DNA of 64,000 nt from Asaia bogorensis (GTDB lineage Bacteria > Pseudomonadota > Alphaproteobacteria > Acetobacterales > Acetobacteraceae), in the NCBI GenBank assembly GCA_945897825.1, contig CAMDGX010000004.1, forward strand, positions 1-64,000, in the 5' to 3' direction. A model generated the notes under the pieces. The model had not been told where the DNA came from, made no database searches, and saw only the letters and a program-made list of their open reading frames with translations. Within the stretch, counting starts at the first letter, position 1. Every line of letters starts with the position of its first letter. The translations under genes were made by a program, and so were the position numbers. Of the stretch, positions 33,494 through 41,075 are shown in pieces.

Positions 33494-35128
33494 TCAGGCG
33501 ATGGCGGCGGGGTAGCCGTCGCGCTGGGGGTCGGCGCCGCCTTCGAGGGTGTTGTCCCACATGGTGATGCCGTGGACGCCGGCGAAGGCGAAGGTGAGGG
33601 GGGAGCGGACGACGTCGTAGCCCATGGCTTCCAAGGCGCGCTGGGTGGCGCGGGGGATGCGGTTGGAGATGTCGATCTTGTCGGAGGTGGCGGAGAAGCG
33701 GGGGGCCTGGACGGCTTCCTGCATGGTCATGCCGAAATCGAGCACGTTGACGATGCCTTGCAGGATGGCGATGCCGATCCAGGCGCCGCCGGGGGCGCCG
33801 ATGGTCATGACCGGGGTGTCGCCTTCGAAGACGATGGTGGGGGCCATGGTGGAGAAGCGGCGCTTGCCGGGGGCGATGGAGCTGGGGCGGCCGGGGCGGG
33901 GGTCGTACCAGTTCATCGCGCCGTTGAGCATGAAGCCGGTGTTCGGCGGGATGACGCCGGAGGGGGTGGCGAGCGTGTGGGTGACGGAGACGACCATGCC
34001 GTTCGCATCGACGGCGGAGAGGGTGGTGGTGTGCGGGGCGTCGGCGAGGGCGCGGGTGAGGGAGGCTTTCTCGCCGCTGCGGATGCGGGCGGCCTGCGCG
34101 TCGGCCCATTCGTCGGAGAGCATGCGGGACAGCGGCGGGGTGAAGAAATCGGGGTCGCCGATGTTCTCGTCCTTGTCGCGGCCGGCGATCTTCATCGCCT
34201 CGGCGACGACGCGGATGAATTCGGGGGTGTTGTGGCCGAGGGCGGCGAGGTCGAAGCGCTCCAGGATGCGCAGGATCTGGGCGACGGTGATGCCGCCGGC
34301 GGGGGGCGGGGGAACGGCGACGGTTCGGCCGCGATAGGGGATGGCGATGGGGGAGTTCACGCGGGGGGCAAAGCCGGCGAGGTCCTGGGCGGAGAGGAGG
34401 CCGCCGTGCTGTTGCTGGTCGGCGACGATGCGGGCGGCGATTTCGCCGGTGTAGAAGGCATCGGCGCCGTCGCGGGCGAGGATGGCGAGGGTGTTGGCCA
34501 GGTCGGGGTTGTGGATGATGTCGCCGAGTTTCTTGGTGGTGCCGTCGGGGCGGAGGTAGAGGCGTGTGCCGTCGGGGGTGAGGCGGAGTTTTTCGATGTA
34601 GGGGAGGCGGCGGTAGGGGGCCTCGTTGGTGGCGAAGACGCCGGCGACGTGGGGGCGGACGGGCCAGCCTTCGGTGGCGACGCGGATGGCGGGGGCGAAG
34701 AGGTCGGCCCAGGGGAGGGTGCCGAACTGGCGGTGGGCGAGGGCGAAGGCGGCGACGATGCCGGGGGTGGTGATGGCGCGGCGGCCGATCTCGTTCACGT
34801 TGCCCTTGACGACGAAGCCGAAGCCGTCGGGGCATTCGCCCTGGAAGTCCTTGGCCCAGAGGTCGGGCGTGGCGGCGGCGGGGCAGGTTCCCATGCCGTC
34901 GATGATCTGGTGGCGGCCGGTGGCGGGGTCGTAGACCTGGATGGTGCCGAGGCCGCCGATGCCGCACATCAGCGGGTCGACGACGCCCTGGGTGAAGGCG
35001 CAGGCGAGCATGGCGTCGACCGCCGAGCCGCCGGCGCGCAGGATGTCGGCACCGGCTTCGACCGCCTCGGGCTGGGGGGCGGTGATCATGGCTTTTGCCG
35101 GGGGGAGGCGGCGGGCGGGGCGGGGCAT
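33494..35128 (-). CDS. ggt: Gamma-glutamyltransferase family protein
   Basis: A 544-residue Ntn-hydrolase precursor that cleaves gamma-glutamyl bonds (glutathione and conjugates) or related amides. The autoprocessing site is in DAPHTTTLSAVDANG, where the first Thr of the small subunit is the nucleophile; downstream are NTGFMLNGAMNWYDP and GAPGGAWIGIAILQG. No signal peptide is seen, so it may be a cytoplasmic family member with another substrate. ATG 35128 has AAGGAG 6 bases upstream; the extension to 35203 lacks an RBS. Divergent from the carbamoylase-type gene. Confidence 0.88.
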   Translation of the reverse strand: MPRPARRLPPAKAMITAPQPEAVEAGADILRAGGSAVDAMLACAFTQGVVDPLMCGIGGLGTIQVYDPATGRHQIIDGMGTCPAAATPDLWAKDFQGECPDGFGFVVKGNVNEIGRRAITTPGIVAAFALAHRQFGTLPWADLFAPAIRVATEGWPVRPHVAGVFATNEAPYRRLPYIEKLRLTPDGTRLYLRPDGTTKKLGDIIHNPDLANTLAILARDGADAFYTGEIAARIVADQQQHGGLLSAQDLAGFAPRVNSPIAIPYRGRTVAVPPPPAGGITVAQILRILERFDLAALGHNTPEFIRVVAEAMKIAGRDKDENIGDPDFFTPPLSRMLSDEWADAQAARIRSGEKASLTRALADAPHTTTLSAVDANGMVVSVTHTLATPSGVIPPNTGFMLNGAMNWYDPRPGRPSSIAPGKRRFSTMAPTIVFEGDTPVMTIGAPGGAWIGIAILQGIVNVLDFGMTMQEAVQAPRFSATSDKIDISNRIPRATQRALEAMGYDVVRSPLTFAFAGVHGITMWDNTLEGGADPQRDGYPAAIA

Positions 35129-35259
35129 GGCGGTCTCCTTCGCTGGCTGATTTGCGCGCCGGGGAGGCCCGGGCGTCAACCCCTTTGGAATCCGGTTGTG
35201 CAACGGGCGGCGGTCGGCGCAGGCTGGATGGATCGCAATAACCAGGAAGGTTGCACGGC

Positions 35260-36492
35260 ATGGCTCCGGTTCGCGTGAATGGAAAGCGGCTTTGGTCCGA
35301 CCTGATGGCGTCGGGGTCGATCGCGCAGTTGCCGCATGGCGGGGTGGACCGGATGGCGCTGACGGACGGGGACCGGGATGTGCGGAACCTGTTCGGGTAT
35401 TGGTGCGAGGCGGCGGGGTTGAAGCTGTCCGTCGATGCGATGGGGAACATGTTTGCGCGGCGGGAGGGGACGGACCCTTCGTTGCCGCCGGTGATGCTCG
35501 GGTCGCATCTGGACAGCCAGTCGCCGGGAGGGAAGTTCGACGGGCCGCTGGGGGTGATCGGGGCGCTGGAGGCGGTGCGGGCGATCGCGGAGGCGGGGAT
35601 TTCGACGAAGCGGGCGCTGGAGGTGGTGAACTGGACCAACGAGGAGGGGGCGCGGTTCTCGCCGGGGCTAATGGGATCGGCGGTGTTCGCGGGGGTGGTG
35701 CCGTTGGCCGATGCCTATGCGTCGGTGGATCGGGAGGGGAAGCGGTTCGGGGATGAGCTGCGGCGCATCCGGTATTGCGGGGATGCGCCAGTGGGGGGGC
35801 GCGAGGTGGATGCGTATTTCGAGCTGCATGTCGAGCAGGGGGCGTTGCTGGAGGAGGCGGGGGTGGTGATCGGCGCGGTGACGCACAGCCATCATTCGGT
35901 GTTCTGCGACATGGAGGTGCTGGGGGAGAACAGCCACATCCAGACGATGCCGATGCTGCGGCGGCGCAATGCGCTGGTGGGGGCGGCGCGGCTGATCGAT
36001 GCGATCGACCAGGTGGGGCGGGCCTATGCGCCGGCGGGGTCGGCGAGTGCGGTGGTGATGGATTGCTGGCCGAACAACCGGATCAACATTCCGCACCGGG
36101 CGACGTTCAGCTACGGGATCATGCATCCGGACGCGGACGGGGCGGCGGCGATGGCGCGGGAGGTGGAGGCGGCCGAGGCGCGGATCGCGGCGGAGACGGG
36201 GCTGGTGTTCAACACGGTGGTGAAGCGGCGGCGCACGCCGTTCCATTTCGACGAGGGGATGATCGGGTTGACGGAGGCGGCGGCCGGGGCGCTCGGGTAT
36301 TCGTGCGCGCGGATGCGGTCGCGGGCGGGGCATGATGCGTTCAACATGACGCTCGTGTGCCCGACGGAGCTGATCTTCGTGCCGAGCCGCGACGGGTGGA
36401 GCCACAGCGAGCGGGAGTGGACGGAGCCGGAGCACTGCACCGCGGGGGTGGAGGTGATGGCGAATGCGGTGGTGGCGCGGGCGAACAGGTAG
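35260..36492 (+). CDS. M20-family Zn-dependent amidohydrolase (N-carbamoylase/allantoate type) 1
   Basis: A 410-residue hydantoinase/carbamoylase-family amidohydrolase removing carbamoyl or ureido groups from amino-acid derivatives. Metal motifs are GSHLDSQSPGGKFDGPLGV, WTNEEGARF, YFELHVEQG and the C-terminal SRAGHDAFN. ATG 35260 has AGGAAGG 9 bases upstream. A paralogue is at 62327. Its stop directly abuts a composite repeat element shared with the convergent methyltransferase gene. Codons end strongly in G, matching the local G-rich plus strand. Confidence 0.88.
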   Translation: MAPVRVNGKRLWSDLMASGSIAQLPHGGVDRMALTDGDRDVRNLFGYWCEAAGLKLSVDAMGNMFARREGTDPSLPPVMLGSHLDSQSPGGKFDGPLGVIGALEAVRAIAEAGISTKRALEVVNWTNEEGARFSPGLMGSAVFAGVVPLADAYASVDREGKRFGDELRRIRYCGDAPVGGREVDAYFELHVEQGALLEEAGVVIGAVTHSHHSVFCDMEVLGENSHIQTMPMLRRRNALVGAARLIDAIDQVGRAYAPAGSASAVVMDCWPNNRINIPHRATFSYGIMHPDADGAAAMAREVEAAEARIAAETGLVFNTVVKRRRTPFHFDEGMIGLTEAAAGALGYSCARMRSRAGHDAFNMTLVCPTELIFVPSRDGWSHSEREWTEPEHCTAGVEVMANAVVARANR

Positions 36493-36629
36493 GGAAGTCG
36501 TTCTTTTTTGAAAAAAAGAACCAAAAAACTTTTATCCATTTGCACGGGGGCTTGATGGTTTGGCCGGGTGCAAATGGATGAAAAGTCTTTTTGCTTCTTT
36601 TTCTTCAGAAAAAGAAGATTCTTACTTCC
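36493..36629. repeat. AT-rich composite palindrome, copy 2 (A-core-B orientation)
   Basis: Begins one base after the carbamoylase stop. Hairpin A (GTTCTTTTTTGAAAAAAAGAAC), arm CAAAAAACTTTTATCC, core ATTTGCAC against GTGCAAATGGATGAAAAG, then TCTTTTTGCTTC and hairpin B (TTCTTTTTCTTCAGAAAAAG). The right end holds the TAA stop of the convergent methyltransferase gene (36622-36624). Between convergent genes. Confidence 0.95.
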
Positions 36630-37350
36630 GCGCAGCGACGAGCAGGAAGGGCGGCCGGTCGCGTTCGGGGGCCCAGGCGGGGTTGGCTTCGATCTGGTCG
36701 GGGCTGGGGCCCCATTCGTCGAGGGCGGTGAGGGTGAAGCCGGCGGCGAGGAGGGTGGTGGCGTAGGTGGCGATGGTGCGGTGGTGCTTGACCACGCCGG
36801 GGGCGAACCAGTTGGTGGTGCGGGGGCCTTCGGCGAGGTAGGCGTCGAGCGGCCAGGTGCGGCGGCCGTCGGGCGTGGTTGCGAAGGCGGGGTTGGTGGG
36901 GGCGGTGTAGATCGGGTGTTCGACCGAGAAGACGAAGGCGCCGCCGGGGACGAGGGCGGCGTGGAGGGTGGCGAGCAGGGCCGGGAGGTTCGCCAGGTAG
37001 TGCAGGGCGAGGGAGGAATAGGCGAGGTCGAAGCTGGCGGGGGGAAGGGTGAGCTGGTCGAGGTCGGCGCGGCGGTATTCGATGGCGGGGTCGGCGGTTT
37101 CGGCGGCGGCGCGGGCGAGCATCTTTTCGGAGAGGTCGAGGCCGAGGACGGTGGCGGCGCCGGCCTCGCGGGCCCAGCGGGCGAACCAGCCGAAGCCGCA
37201 GCCGAGATCGACGACGCGCAGGCCGGGCATGGGCGGCAGCATGGCGCGCAGGGTGGGCCATTCGGCGGCGCCGTCCAGGCCCTTCTGCGAGCGGGCGAGG
37301 GTGCTGTAGCCGGCGAAGAAGCTGTCGTCGTCGTAGATGTTCTGGGCCAT
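36622..37350 (-). CDS. Class I SAM-dependent methyltransferase
   Basis: A 242-residue methyltransferase with SAM motif I VVDLGCGFGWFARWA, an acidic ribose-binding position in VLGLDLSEKM, and EYRRADLDQL and FDLAYSSLALHYL as later motifs. The substrate is unknown. ATG 37350 is chosen because GGAG lies 6 bases upstream. The 210 bases before it hold a leader ORF and an intrinsic terminator, suggesting attenuation control. Confidence 0.85.
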   Translation of the reverse strand: MAQNIYDDDSFFAGYSTLARSQKGLDGAAEWPTLRAMLPPMPGLRVVDLGCGFGWFARWAREAGAATVLGLDLSEKMLARAAAETADPAIEYRRADLDQLTLPPASFDLAYSSLALHYLANLPALLATLHAALVPGGAFVFSVEHPIYTAPTNPAFATTPDGRRTWPLDAYLAEGPRTTNWFAPGVVKHHRTIATYATTLLAAGFTLTALDEWGPSPDQIEANPAWAPERDRPPFLLVAARK

Positions 37351-37403
37351 CGGGGACTCCATGCGATGCGCGGGGGAGATGGCAGGCGGGGCGTCGGCGC
37401 ATG

Positions 37404-37433
37404 AAAAAGGCCCCGTCCGGGTGCGGAGGGGCC
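37404..37433 (-). terminator. Intrinsic terminator upstream of methyltransferase (attenuator candidate)
   Basis: On the minus strand GGCCCCTCCG, loop CACC, CGGA, a bulged C, GGGGCC, then TTTTT: a 10-bp stem with a U-tract. Its left arm (432-426 part of the 37 kb stretch) can instead pair with GAGGGGC at 37488-37482 inside the leader ORF. A second alternative pairs GTCCGG (37470-37465) with CCGGAC (37420-37415). It can also be read simply as the terminator of the amidase-TrmO operon. Confidence 0.8.
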
Positions 37434-37461
37434 TGTGGTGGAGCGTTGCGGTCTCAGATCG

Positions 37462-37536
37462 TCACCGGACGCAGCTCTCCTGCCCCTCAGCGAGGATGCG
37501 GGCGGGTCTGGCGACGACGAGGAAGTGCCGGAACAT
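37462..37536 (-). CDS. Candidate 24-residue leader peptide
   Basis: ORF of 24 codons: MFRHFLVVARPARILAEGQE, then SCVR and TGA. It lies 39 bases after the TrmO-like gene and ends 28 bases before the terminator hairpin. Its codons 17-19 (GAG GGG CAG) form the segment that could break the terminator, and the end of the ORF overlaps the second alternative segment. There is no run of one amino acid; Phe, Leu, Val and Ile are enriched early. No strong Shine-Dalgarno. Confidence 0.4.
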   Translation of the reverse strand: MFRHFLVVARPARILAEGQESCVR

Positions 37537-37575
37537 GGCGTCAGGATGCGCGGGTGCGGCTTGGGGCGTCAAGCG

Positions 37576-38031
37576 TCATCGGCTGCGTTTCTGGAAGCCC
37601 ATGCTGGCGTCGGGCTCGCAATCGGTGCTGGGGAGGTAGGGCTTGATGTCGAGCAGGGGCGTGCCGTCGATGCAGTCGAGGTAGCGGACGCGCAGGATGC
37701 CGGGGGCGGCGAAGCCTTCCAGCTTCACCACCGACAGGCCGATCGGGTTGGGGCGGCGGGGGGTTCGGGTGGCGAACAGGCCGCGGGGTTCGGTGTCGTT
37801 GGGCGGCGTGAACTGCAGCTCCGGCGTGCCGGCGCGGTCGAGCCAGTAGAGCAGGATGAGGTGGGTGTAGCCTTCGAGGTCCTTGAGGGCGGGGATGTAG
37901 TGTTCATCCACCTCGACGGTGCATTCGGGGATGTCGCCGCGGCGGCCGTTGCGCGGGCATTCGGATGTGGTTTTCCAGGGGGTGCGCAGCCGGCCGATCG
38001 GGGTGGCGAGCAGCCGGGCTGCGTCGGTCAT
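37576..38031 (-). CDS. TrmO/TsaA-family tRNA methyltransferase-like protein
   Basis: A 151-residue member of the UPF0066 (TsaA/TrmO) family, whose E. coli member N6-methylates t6A37 in tRNA-Thr(GGU). Family motifs are IGRLRTPW, CPRNG, LILLYWLDRA, the signature GLFATRTPRRPNPIGLSVVKL, and LDCIDGTPLLDIKPYLP. It lies 4 bases after the amidase gene. Some family members lack shown tRNA activity, so the exact substrate is left open. Confidence 0.85.
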   Translation of the reverse strand: MTDAARLLATPIGRLRTPWKTTSECPRNGRRGDIPECTVEVDEHYIPALKDLEGYTHLILLYWLDRAGTPELQFTPPNDTEPRGLFATRTPRRPNPIGLSVVKLEGFAAPGILRVRYLDCIDGTPLLDIKPYLPSTDCEPDASMGFQKRSR

Positions 38032-38035
38032 GGCG

Positions 38036-39451
38036 CTACCAGTCCATCGCGGGGCGCTTGTCGGCCCAGGGCTGGATGCGTTCGAAGGCGCGCGAGGCCT
38101 GCATCACGCCGAGGTCGTCGAAGCGGCGGCCGACGATCTGCAGGCCGACGGGCAGGCCGTCCTTGGTGAAGCCGGCGGGGACGGTGGCGGCGGGGTTCCA
38201 GCTCATGTTGAACGGGTAGGAGAACTCGGCCCACTGGATCCAGTCCCACGGGTGCTGCGGCCAGTGGTCGGGCATCAGCTTCTCGGCGGGGAAGGCGGCG
38301 ACGGAGACGGTGGGGGTGATGAGGAAGTCCCACTCCTCGAAGAACATGTGGATGTCGGCGATGTAGGCCATCTTGCGCATCCGCATGTCCTGGTACTGCG
38401 CCATGGTGACGTTGCCGCCATCCTTGATGCAGGCGACCAGGCCGGGGTCCATCTGGTGTTCCCACTTGGGCAGCAGGGCGGCGCTGCGGGTCATGTGGGC
38501 GGACCAGAAGTCGCGGATCAGGCCGGCGCCGGTGGGGCCCCAGGCGGGCTTCACGTCGACCAGGGAGAAGCCGCCATTGGCGGCGAAGTTCTCGGCGGCG
38601 CGGCGGACGAGGTCGGCCACTTCGGGGTCGACGCGGGCGTGGCCGAGATCCATCGAGAAGGCGACGCGCTTGCCCTTCACGCCATCATCGAGCCGGCCGA
38701 TGTAGTCGGCGGGCCAGGCTTCCTGGCTGGTATGGTCGAGCGGGTGCGGGCCGGACATCACCTGCATCATCAGCGCGCCATCGCCGACGGTGCGGGTCAT
38801 CGGGCCGATATGGCTGGTGTAGTCGCCGGCGCCGACGGGGTGGTTGGGCACGCGGCCATGGGTGGGCTTGAGGCCGAACAGGCCGCAGAAATGGCTCGGC
38901 ATGCGGATGGAGCCCGCGCCGTCGCTGCCCTGGTGCAGGGCGGAGTAGCCCGCGGCGGAGGCGGCCCCGGCACCGGCGGAGGAGGCGCCGGCATTGTAGC
39001 CCTTCTTCCACGGGTTGCTGGTGATGCCGGTGAGCGGGCTGCGGGAGACGCCGGTCCAGCCGAACTCGCTGGTGGTGGTCTTGCCGATGACAATGCCGCC
39101 GGCCTCGCGCAGGCGGGCGACGAAGGGGTTGTCGATCTTGGACTGGAAGCCCTTGGCGGAGTGGCTGCCGGACTCGGTCGGGAAATCGACCGTCCAGGCG
39201 AGGTCCTTGATGGTGACGGGCAGGCCGTGCAGCGGGCCGATGTTGCCGCCCTTCATCAGGGCGTCCTCGGCCTTGCGGGCGCGGTCCATCGCCAGTTCCG
39301 GCCCGAAGGCGGCCATGGCGTTGATCTTCGGCTCCAGCCGCTCGATGCGCTTGATGATGGTGGCCATCACCTCGACCGGCGAGATCTTCTTCTGCCGGAT
39401 CATCGGCGCCAGTTCGGTAGCGGGCAGGAAGCCCAGGTCTTCTTCGTTCAT
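38036..39451 (-). CDS. Amidase signature-family amidohydrolase
   Basis: A 471-residue cytoplasmic amidase. The Ser-cisSer-Lys triad is visible: Lys in VTIKDLAWT, cis-Ser in NAGASSAGAGAASA, and nucleophile Ser in GSDGAGSIRMPS. The FGLKPTHGRVP strand and C-terminal GLPVGLQIVGRRFDD are family typical. GatA-like members lack the context of gatB/gatC here, so it is probably a catabolic amidase. Operon with the TrmO-like gene. Confidence 0.9.
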   Translation of the reverse strand: MNEEDLGFLPATELAPMIRQKKISPVEVMATIIKRIERLEPKINAMAAFGPELAMDRARKAEDALMKGGNIGPLHGLPVTIKDLAWTVDFPTESGSHSAKGFQSKIDNPFVARLREAGGIVIGKTTTSEFGWTGVSRSPLTGITSNPWKKGYNAGASSAGAGAASAAGYSALHQGSDGAGSIRMPSHFCGLFGLKPTHGRVPNHPVGAGDYTSHIGPMTRTVGDGALMMQVMSGPHPLDHTSQEAWPADYIGRLDDGVKGKRVAFSMDLGHARVDPEVADLVRRAAENFAANGGFSLVDVKPAWGPTGAGLIRDFWSAHMTRSAALLPKWEHQMDPGLVACIKDGGNVTMAQYQDMRMRKMAYIADIHMFFEEWDFLITPTVSVAAFPAEKLMPDHWPQHPWDWIQWAEFSYPFNMSWNPAATVPAGFTKDGLPVGLQIVGRRFDDLGVMQASRAFERIQPWADKRPAMDW

Positions 39452-39496
39452 GGTGTCGCTCTCCCCTCGTCGGCGCGTCGCCCGCCGGAATCGAAA

Positions 39497-39522
39497 GGGG
39501 CCGGACGTTGCCGCCCGGCCCC
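39497..39522 (-). terminator. Terminator after the aminomutase-like gene
   Basis: Perfect 8-bp stem GGGGCCGG and CCGGCCCC with a 10-base loop; on the minus strand it is followed by TTTCGATTC. It separates the aminomutase-like gene from the amidase operon. Confidence 0.7.
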
Positions 39523-39533
39523 CGGCCGAAAGA

Positions 39534-40928
39534 TCAGTTCGGAAGCTCGCCTTCCGCCTTCAGCATCTTCAGCGCCTCGCGATAGGCGCTGACGGTGTCG
39601 GCCACGTCCTGCGCGGTGTGGGTGGCCGAGAGCAGGCCGCCGATGCGCGGGTTGGTGTCGACGCCGTTGACCAGCAGCGCGATGCGCATGCGGTTGTTGA
39701 GCTTCTGCGGCTGGGCCTTCAGCTCCTCCATCTCGACCACATAGGGGTCGAAGCCATGCGGGGTGATGTCGCGGCCCTTCGGGTTCACGAACAGGTGGAA
39801 GCCCGAGGAGGTGCCGTAGACCGACCACTTGAGGCCGAACTCGGCCAGTACGTCGTTCAGCCCGGAGCGCAGCGCGGTCGCGGTGTCGGCGGCCTTCTGC
39901 ACCGCGTCGGTCTCGGCCAGGATGGTGAGGCAGGCGATACCGGCGGCCGCCGAGACGGGGTTGGCGTTGAAAGTGCCGGGGTGGCCGATCTTCTCGCGGC
40001 CGGCCTTGGCGGTGGCGGCGAAGTCGAGCAGGTCCAGGATGTCCTTGCGGCCGGTGACGCAGCCGCCCGGCATGCCGCCGGCGAGGATCTTGGCCCAGGA
40101 GGAGAGGTCGGGCGTGATGCCCCAGGCGACCTGCGCGCCGCCCGGCGAGGCGCGGAAGCCGGTGACGACCTCGTCCATGATCAGCAGCGCGCCGTATTTC
40201 GTGGTGAGGCGGCGCAGCTCCTGGACGAACTCGGCCTTCAGCGGGACCTGGCCGAAGCTGCTGCCGGTGGGCTCCAGGATGGCGGCGCAGATGTCCGGGT
40301 TGGCCTTCAGCGCGGCCTCGACGGCGGCGATGTCGCCGGGGTTCACCAGCACGGATTTCTGCGCGACGGAGGGCAGGACGCCTGGGGTCGGCGTGCCGTC
40401 GTAGTGGTTGGAGTAGCCATTGGCCATCTGGTCGTGCCAGCCGTGGAAGTGGCCCTTGAAGCGCAGCAGCGTCTCCTTGCCGGTGAAGGCGCGGGCGAGG
40501 CGCACCGCCATCAGGGTGGCTTCGGTGCCGGAGGAGGTGAAGCGGATGCGCTCGGCGGCGGGGACCAGGCGCTTGACCGCATTGGCCCAGCCGATCTCGC
40601 GGGGGTGGCTGGCGCCGAACTGCGAGCCGTCCTGCATCGCCTCGGTGATCGCCTTCAGCACCGTGGGATGGTTGTGGCCGAGGATGAGCGCGCCGTGGCC
40701 GCCGAAGTAGTCGACATACTTGTTGCCGTCGACGTCCCACTTGTGCGGGCCGGCGGCGCGGGCGACGTAGATGCCGTAGGGGTCGAGGTTGCGCGCATCA
40801 TGCGTGATGCCGCTGGGGAACAGCTCCTGCGCCTGGCGCGACATCTCGGCCGAGCCCGCGGTGCGCTGGCGGTAGGCGGTGACGATTCGCGAGTTCGTCC
40901 GGGAATCGTCGGTGGTGGTGGTGCTCAT
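39534..40928 (-). CDS. Class III aminotransferase, glutamate-1-semialdehyde aminomutase-like
   Basis: A 464-residue PLP enzyme closest in pattern to HemL: RFTSSGTEATLMAVRLARAFTG, FKGHFHGWHD, AAILEPTGSSFG, the IMDEVVTGFR Asp and the PLP lysine in SSWAKILAGGMPGG. It is longer than HemL (about 430) and sits beside a deacetylase rather than heme genes, so a different amine or amino-acid substrate is likely. ATG 40928 has AGGAG 7 bases upstream. Confidence 0.82.
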   Translation of the reverse strand: MSTTTTDDSRTNSRIVTAYRQRTAGSAEMSRQAQELFPSGITHDARNLDPYGIYVARAAGPHKWDVDGNKYVDYFGGHGALILGHNHPTVLKAITEAMQDGSQFGASHPREIGWANAVKRLVPAAERIRFTSSGTEATLMAVRLARAFTGKETLLRFKGHFHGWHDQMANGYSNHYDGTPTPGVLPSVAQKSVLVNPGDIAAVEAALKANPDICAAILEPTGSSFGQVPLKAEFVQELRRLTTKYGALLIMDEVVTGFRASPGGAQVAWGITPDLSSWAKILAGGMPGGCVTGRKDILDLLDFAATAKAGREKIGHPGTFNANPVSAAAGIACLTILAETDAVQKAADTATALRSGLNDVLAEFGLKWSVYGTSSGFHLFVNPKGRDITPHGFDPYVVEMEELKAQPQKLNNRMRIALLVNGVDTNPRIGGLLSATHTAQDVADTVSAYREALKMLKAEGELPN

Positions 40929-41075
40929 CGGGTGCTCCTGCGTGGTGCGCATGCCGCATGCGGGGGTCGGGGACGGACGCTGACGCGGTATTCTGCACCA
41001 GTTTCGCGGATTGGCGAGGGGTTGCGCGAAAATTCCCCGGACGCGACGATTGTGTTCCAGCCAGAAGGAGCACGC

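Follow-up and report, generated by a model that had tools for sequence, protein, structure and literature searches.

The closest studied system to the element described here is the leader of tlrB (yxjB) in Bacillus subtilis, which is under tylosin-dependent transcription and translation attenuation (PMC6851288). The two have in common a short leader peptide, an intrinsic terminator, a downstream methyltransferase and an RNA fold that is altered, or here predicted to be altered, by a stalled ribosome. The tlrB leader has 9 residues, a Shine-Dalgarno sequence and an RYR motif at its end, whereas the ORF described here is probably leaderless, encodes 23–27 residues across the family and has its conserved core at residues 7–11. 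It also differs from tlrB in having a 2:3 antiterminator, and its methyltransferase is not RlmA. Leaders of erm genes (ErmCL, ErmBL and others) are alike in that a short hydrophobic core follows the start at a set, small number of residues and a methyltransferase lies downstream, but most of them control translation, act on an rRNA methyltransferase and occur in Gram-positive bacteria, in contrast to the predicted transcription attenuation of an unrelated methyltransferase in Gram-negative bacteria.

Within the alphaproteobacteria, the trpL, thrS, asd and dapA attenuators resemble our element in having an ORF close behind the promoter, a hairpin within the ORF, an antiterminator and a GC-rich terminator with GGGGCCTTTTT. 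However, their peptides repeat the regulated amino acid in runs and their target is its pathway; the leader here has neither feature. Two Gram-negative upstream ORFs respond to ribosome-targeting antibiotics, toiL of Escherichia coli topAI (PMC12121999) and that of a DUF1127 gene in Sinorhizobium meliloti (PMC12218461); these involve Rho-dependent termination, and the present leader an intrinsic terminator and antiterminator. A 2025 paper assigned antibiotic-type upstream-ORF attenuation to Gram-positive and the amino-acid type to Gram-negative bacteria (PMC12218461). We found no description of the present leader family in the literature searched, where journal coverage was incomplete. In the window, the whole 64,000-nucleotide stretch of DNA that was analyzed, Rfam gave no match at gathering score except a tRNA, and hits for the window element and for one other leader locus (L167) were at chance level. 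The lack of an Rfam match, together with a peptide core under selection, led us to reject a riboswitch. A parallel with ErmSL (IAAR) is not counted as evidence, as the motif was not found in the literature searched.

We interpret the element as an attenuator of transcription under ribosome control that works through an arrest peptide, with a drug that inhibits the ribosome as the most likely cause of the stall. This is the best explanation of the data, with a probability of roughly 0.6. The element itself, its conserved peptide core and its alternative helices are supported by comparison of sequences among relatives.

On the minus strand of the window, the gap between trmO and the methyltransferase gene (37575 to 37350) contains, by direct reading, a leader ORF and a terminator (Table 1). 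The earlier note, made from this DNA alone, had reported a 24-codon ORF, a 10-bp intrinsic terminator ending in TTTTT and two alternative pairings, all of which we recovered. The ORF encodes MFRHFLVVARPARILAEGQESCVR and ends with TGA at 37464–37462. Direct reading and folding give a terminator with arms GGCCCCTCCG (37433–37424) and CGGACGGGGCC (37419–37409) around the loop CACC, forming a 10-bp stem with a single bulged C, followed by the T-run at 37408–37404. GAGGGGC within the ORF is the exact complement of GCCCCTC in the left arm, as is GTCCGG (37470–37465) of CCGGAC in the right arm. The latter segment belongs to the right strand of a long helix that spans the leader stop codon, and it may pair with the terminator right arm instead.

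Table 1. Features of the leader locus and its neighbors (positions in the window)
Feature	Positions	Strand	Remarks
-35-like element TTGACG	37567..37572	-	36 nt 5' of leader ATG
-10-like element CATCCT, weak	37543..37548	-	A at -11 in 31/33 leaders
Leader ORF, 24 codons, MFRHFLVVARPARILAEGQESCVR	37462..37536	-	Start and length same in congener G006
Codons 7-10, Val-Val-Ala-Arg, putative arrest motif	37507..37518	-	Window form of the [I/V]V[A/S/T]R core
Long helix predicted in unstalled RNA, left strand GTCGTCGCC.GAC	37506..37518	-	Fold; compensatory change relative to G006
Long helix predicted in unstalled RNA, right strand GTC.GGTGACGAT	37458..37470	-	Fold and G006 alignment
Region 2, GAGGGGC, antiterminator left strand within ORF	37482..37488	-	Sequence, covariation, fold
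Region 3, GCCCCTC, antiterminator right strand and terminator left arm	37426..37432	-	Sequence, covariation, fold
Intrinsic terminator hairpin and T-run	37404..37433	-	Sequence, fold, family pairing
Region 5, CGCCCCGCC, possible 4:5 partner of terminator right arm in read-through state	37385..37393	-	p=0.16 in the window
Shine-Dalgarno GGAG of methyltransferase	37357..37360	-	GGAG also conserved among relatives
Class I SAM-dependent methyltransferase, 242 aa	36622..37350	-	Orthologue of PDB 3bkw; likely start 37350
trmO, upstream neighbor, outside the switch	37576..38031	-	Context

Within the genus, the element was present in one of eight congeners (G006), with 88% identity over 140 nt extending exactly from the ATG to the T-run. 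There it precedes the orthologous methyltransferase, trmO is on another contig, and the leader ORF retains 24 codons. The methyltransferase proteins of the two genomes are 72% identical, compared with 88% for the leader element. The long helix joins codons 7–11 with the stop-codon region and shows one compensatory change between window and G006, from C-G to U-A, as codon 7 changes from GTC to GTT and G changes to A on the opposite strand. In the remaining congeners, trmO and the methyltransferase are separated by little or no spacer, or by unrelated inserts. Since most congeners have the methyltransferase after trmO without a leader, leader control appears to be dispensable. Matches covering the central part of the ORF in other genomes of the family were mostly coding sequence by chance and were discarded.

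Taken alone, the ORF, terminator and pairings of the window copy are no better than chance. Two terminator-like sites were found in 5 kb compared with 2.5 expected from shuffles, and the fold of the window leader had a z-score of -1.85. When the ORF part beyond the stall point was shuffled, 31% of shuffles paired as many terminator-arm bases, showing that GC-rich arms pair readily; this control rules out single-sequence statistics as proof of an attenuator. It also makes the stalled and unstalled folds weak evidence by themselves; the claim is carried by covariation. The earlier note had named, as what would refute its idea, a hairpin that does no more than terminate the amidase-trmO operon constitutively. 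In this rival reading, the ORF and pairings would have arisen by chance. Although these weak statistics and the position of the hairpin after trmO in the window fit such a terminator, in G006 and other genera the element precedes the methyltransferase with no trmO upstream of it, and it has its own promoter-like signals and covariation. Conservation contradicts the rival reading, which we regard as highly improbable.

Homologous leaders occur well beyond the genus. Covariance models and orthologue searches recovered about 45, from Acetobacteraceae, Rhizobiaceae and other alphaproteobacteria and from one Pseudomonas plasmid. Where the downstream gene of a strong hit was readable, it was this same class I methyltransferase in all cases but one, a DHA2-type efflux pump. 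The first model, built from 17 leaders, gave strong hits in 385 alphaproteobacterial genomes exclusively before this methyltransferase. Among 397 Acetobacteraceae genomes, it found eight leaders before the methyltransferase, one at a contig end and one, in G269, before a pump of the DHA2/EmrB type; no such methyltransferase was found in the G269 genome. A second model, run on 295 genomes from the family of the Mesorhizobium leader, found 14 leaders, of which 13 were readable and all 13 contained the core. The methyltransferase is downstream in most of these, and in a few the longest-frame rule chose another frame. An order-level scan around G556 (three genomes) and a family scan around G576 (four genomes) added no leaders.

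Starting instead from the methyltransferase, we scanned one genome per species (84,980 species) and obtained 80 loci. A complete leader with a covariance score above 85 bits was present at 15 of these, in Mesorhizobium, Bosea, Bradyrhizobium, Ensifer, Phyllobacterium, Siccirubricoccus and Roseovarius among other genera, and a few more loci had a decayed remnant. At three methyltransferase loci (L096, L099 and L148) the terminator is retained and the ORF is gone, a form of switch decay, and two Sinorhizobium/Ensifer loci (L117 and L232) carry an inserted palindromic repeat after the terminator and before the methyltransferase. Plasmid copies of the leader were found in Pseudomonas hygromyciniae, Microvirga, Ciceribacter and Sinorhizobium, and no match was found in the phages searched.

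The leader peptide is conserved mainly in its first half. A typical sequence is M(x)EKDTHIVARxAGIPTGGMQGxRxR, and the start codon is ATG in all 33 aligned leaders. The core [I/V]V[A/S/T]R has its first residue at position 7 or 8 in all of them and in 13 further leaders outside the alignment. Its first position is Ile in 29 leaders and Val in 3, its second is Val in 32 of 32, its third is Ala (24), Ser (6), Cys (1) or Thr (1), with Pro in one more leader, and its last is Arg in 30 of 32. Codon usage at these positions is diverse (three codons for Ile, three for Val and six for Arg), and pN/pS is 0.00 for V, 0.09 for I and 0.18 for R, compared with 0.98 for the residue directly after R. The invariant Val with three codons and the Arg with six codons indicate selection on the peptide; the ORF is conserved with synonymous changes in the core, and its translation is predicted. 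Leaders whose loop is one base shorter have IPLAGCRD in place of IPTGGMQG and retain the hairpin. As the downstream peptide changes with loop length, the first eleven or so codons seem to matter as peptide and the rest as RNA. Such a core, kept at a constant distance from the start codon, suggests nascent-peptide arrest. The known R/K-X-R/K arrest motif is not the conserved core; only some of the leaders have an RxR at the C terminus, and those of the IPLAGCRD type lack it.

Covariation supports three mutually exclusive helices at the family level. Helix 1:2 pairs in 90.6% of cells, with base pair 40–63 occurring as G-C, U-A or C-G, and helix 3:4, the terminator, pairs in 93.0%. Helix 2:3, the antiterminator, was absent from the model used for alignment; it pairs in 86.9% of cells, compared with 50–56% in slid controls, and five of its pairs are changed on both sides. 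Across all three helices, slid controls were 26–58% paired, and changes on both sides were seen. An additional 4:5 pairing, between the terminator right arm and a segment after the T-run, had p<0.05 in 24 of 29 leaders. The window copy has diverged, and it agrees only partly with the consensus pairs of the 1:2 hairpin and of the 2:3 pairing; the GAGGGGC/GCCCCTC pairing pointed out earlier is its version of the conserved antiterminator. When a ribosome was modeled with R in the P site, its edge lay at about nucleotides 43–46, over region 1, and the free RNA was predicted to fold 2:3 in the leaders tested, including that of the window; unstalled, most fold 1:2. An intrinsic terminator separates the leader ORF from the structural gene. 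The element is very probably an attenuator. The earlier note had proposed a ribosome-controlled layout and suggested looking for a conserved ORF and covarying pairings in relatives. The ORF, start codon, core, terminator and antiterminator are all kept and covary across many genera, so the proposed layout appears to hold.

Promoter-like sequences place the predicted transcript start close to the ORF. TTGAC lies 35–36 nt 5' of the ATG in most of the 33 leaders, and 31 of them have an A at -11. From these signals, transcription would be expected to start at the ATG or right beside it, which would make the ORF leaderless, as it probably is. In trpL of S. meliloti, transcription is reported to start at the ATG (PMC10117765, PMC7298713). 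A leaderless ORF with a terminator is also the layout of rnTrpL (PMC7298713, PMC10117765), and it is conceivable that the element mainly yields a short trans-acting RNA or peptide, like rnTrpL/peTrpL of S. meliloti. The fixed linkage to one downstream gene and the conserved antiterminator and 4:5 pairings favor cis control instead, and we consider a mainly trans-acting role very unlikely, although cis control and trans action can both hold.

We propose the following mechanism for the preferred reading, an attenuator with an arrest peptide and a drug-induced stall. A promoter just after trmO would start transcription at or next to the leader ATG. During normal translation, the ribosome would read through, and either regions 1 and 2 would pair or the ribosome would cover region 2; the 3:4 terminator could then form and the methyltransferase would be off. 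A ribosome stalled with [I/V]V[A/S/T]R at the peptidyl-transferase center would instead cover region 1, allowing the 2:3 antiterminator to form and leaving region 4 free for region 5, so that polymerase could enter the methyltransferase gene. We infer translation, stalling and the stall position from the sequence evidence given above.

The same RNA switch could respond to an ordinary shortage of Val-, Ala- or Arg-charged tRNA. The thrS, asd and dapA attenuators that our models also picked up have the same layout, leaderless ORF and terminator style; these weaker hits are classic attenuators with Thr, Lys or mixed codon runs and serve as an internal contrast. However, none of the roughly 45 leaders contains an amino-acid codon run, which extends to the whole family the earlier observation that the window peptide lacks a tell-tale run. 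About a third of leaders have Ser, Thr, Cys or Pro in place of the Ala, Arg is replaced by His or Trp in two, and only a single Val codon position is invariant. Furthermore, the downstream gene is neither biosynthetic nor a tRNA synthetase, being a methyltransferase or an efflux pump. Starvation sensing thus seems improbable, and an arrest peptide is the likely alternative to it.

The stall is most likely caused by an inhibitor that targets the ribosome and is recognized jointly with the short nascent peptide, as in the tlrB and erm leaders. We favor a ribosome inhibitor as co-signal because of the efflux-pump case, the ant(6)-Ia and MFS neighbors of plasmid homologues, the A/S/T position and the fixed position of the motif. 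Phenicols and linezolid stall best with a penultimate Ala, then Ser or Thr (PMC8987054). With R in the P site, A/S/T would be the penultimate residue, which matches this preference; a macrolide is equally possible as co-signal, and Pro in one leader and Cys in another at this position count against the preferred reading. We infer the inducing compound, and likewise a role of the methyltransferase in resistance, and place a drug signal at even odds or slightly better.

TnaC is an arrest peptide that senses tryptophan, and a peptide sensing a metabolite, such as S-adenosylmethionine or the methyltransferase's own substrate or product, could work the same RNA switch with another ligand. The peptide and RNA evidence applies to it equally, and nearly all leaders precede the same methyltransferase. 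On the other hand, the leader in G269, a genome lacking the methyltransferase, precedes an efflux pump, and methyltransferase homologues are carried on resistance plasmids. The core at residues 7–11 also lies within the range in which drug-dependent arrest occurs in short erm leaders. We therefore regard a metabolite as an unlikely signal, though less so than amino-acid starvation.

The genes downstream bear on a possible role in resistance. The methyltransferase belongs to class I and is an orthologue of PDB 3bkw, neither an Erm nor an RlmA protein. On an Enterococcus faecium plasmid, a homologue lies 33 bp before ant(6)-Ia, and homologues are present on 354 Enterococcus plasmid records; one study gives the Enterococcus homologue no function (PMC13055272). 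In one such plasmid locus (L224, 4001–5676), the homologue stands directly before ant(6)-Ia, sat4 and aph(3')-IIIa. A Klebsiella plasmid carries a homologue 32 bp before an MFS gene; upstream of this pair (L225, 4001–5918 and 300 bp upstream) lie a short ORF, MFVCLVCKDRGGYVCGD, and two intrinsic terminators, which may make up a separate attenuator. Candidate links to resistance are the methyltransferase, an efflux pump in one case and the plasmid neighbors ant(6)-Ia and MFS, although the neighbors on resistance plasmids may be coincidental passengers. Together, these leaders may form a new class-wide Gram-negative family in which a leaderless ORF with a new arrest core senses antibiotics and switches a methyltransferase or efflux pump acting as resistance determinant, with relatives on plasmids; we put this forward tentatively, as somewhat less than an even chance. 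If true, an alphaproteobacterial arrest-peptide switch would extend a theme of Gram-positive bacteria, the attenuation of resistance genes by way of the ribosome. It would also add a new arrest motif and open a way to the function of the methyltransferase family (PDB 3bkw), with relatives beside ant(6)-Ia on Enterococcus plasmids.

Other attenuator-like leaders and repeats were seen in the course of these searches. At L002, L004, L005, L008 and L009 (G000:C39 and congeners), a classic attenuator stands before the asd gene, made up of a Thr/Lys-rich leader peptide such as MFSLATLTTRKTKKTPDRVSLVRAR and a terminator. Homology of our element to the asd leader, suggested by a 92% identical terminator, was rejected; thrS, asd and dapA leaders all have this terminator style, which therefore does not prove descent. 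Leaders of thrS (threonyl-tRNA synthetase) with Thr codons, in runs of up to nine, were found at L190, L192, L193, L195, L196, L198, L212 and L243; they have the same terminator style and come from several families of alphaproteobacteria and from a single genome of another class. At L202 and L210, a dapA-like gene follows a short leader peptide (containing Lys in L210) and a terminator. In one large genus (L194, L241, L242, L245 and L246), a leader ending like MTRxxWAVEGVVR and a terminator precede a gene whose product end resembles a DUF1127 protein, and a DUF1127 gene of S. meliloti is attenuated by an upstream ORF (PMC12218461). Leaders without an obvious codon run (MLIAVHAALYFTGFPIAGRPRSYMR and MRSFRIQLVNLLPTASGGPVRDVVR) are followed by a terminator at L199 and L244, and the gene downstream of L244 resembles a GNAT acetyltransferase. 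In the window, 33494–41041 holds an amide-type catabolic cluster with gamma-glutamyltransferase-like, hydantoinase/carbamoylase-family amidase, amidase and class III aminotransferase-like genes. The palindrome CTTCTTTTTCTTCAGAAAAAGAAG lies at 36594–36617, and similar sequences recur in intergenic gaps of the genus (also at L036 and L039).
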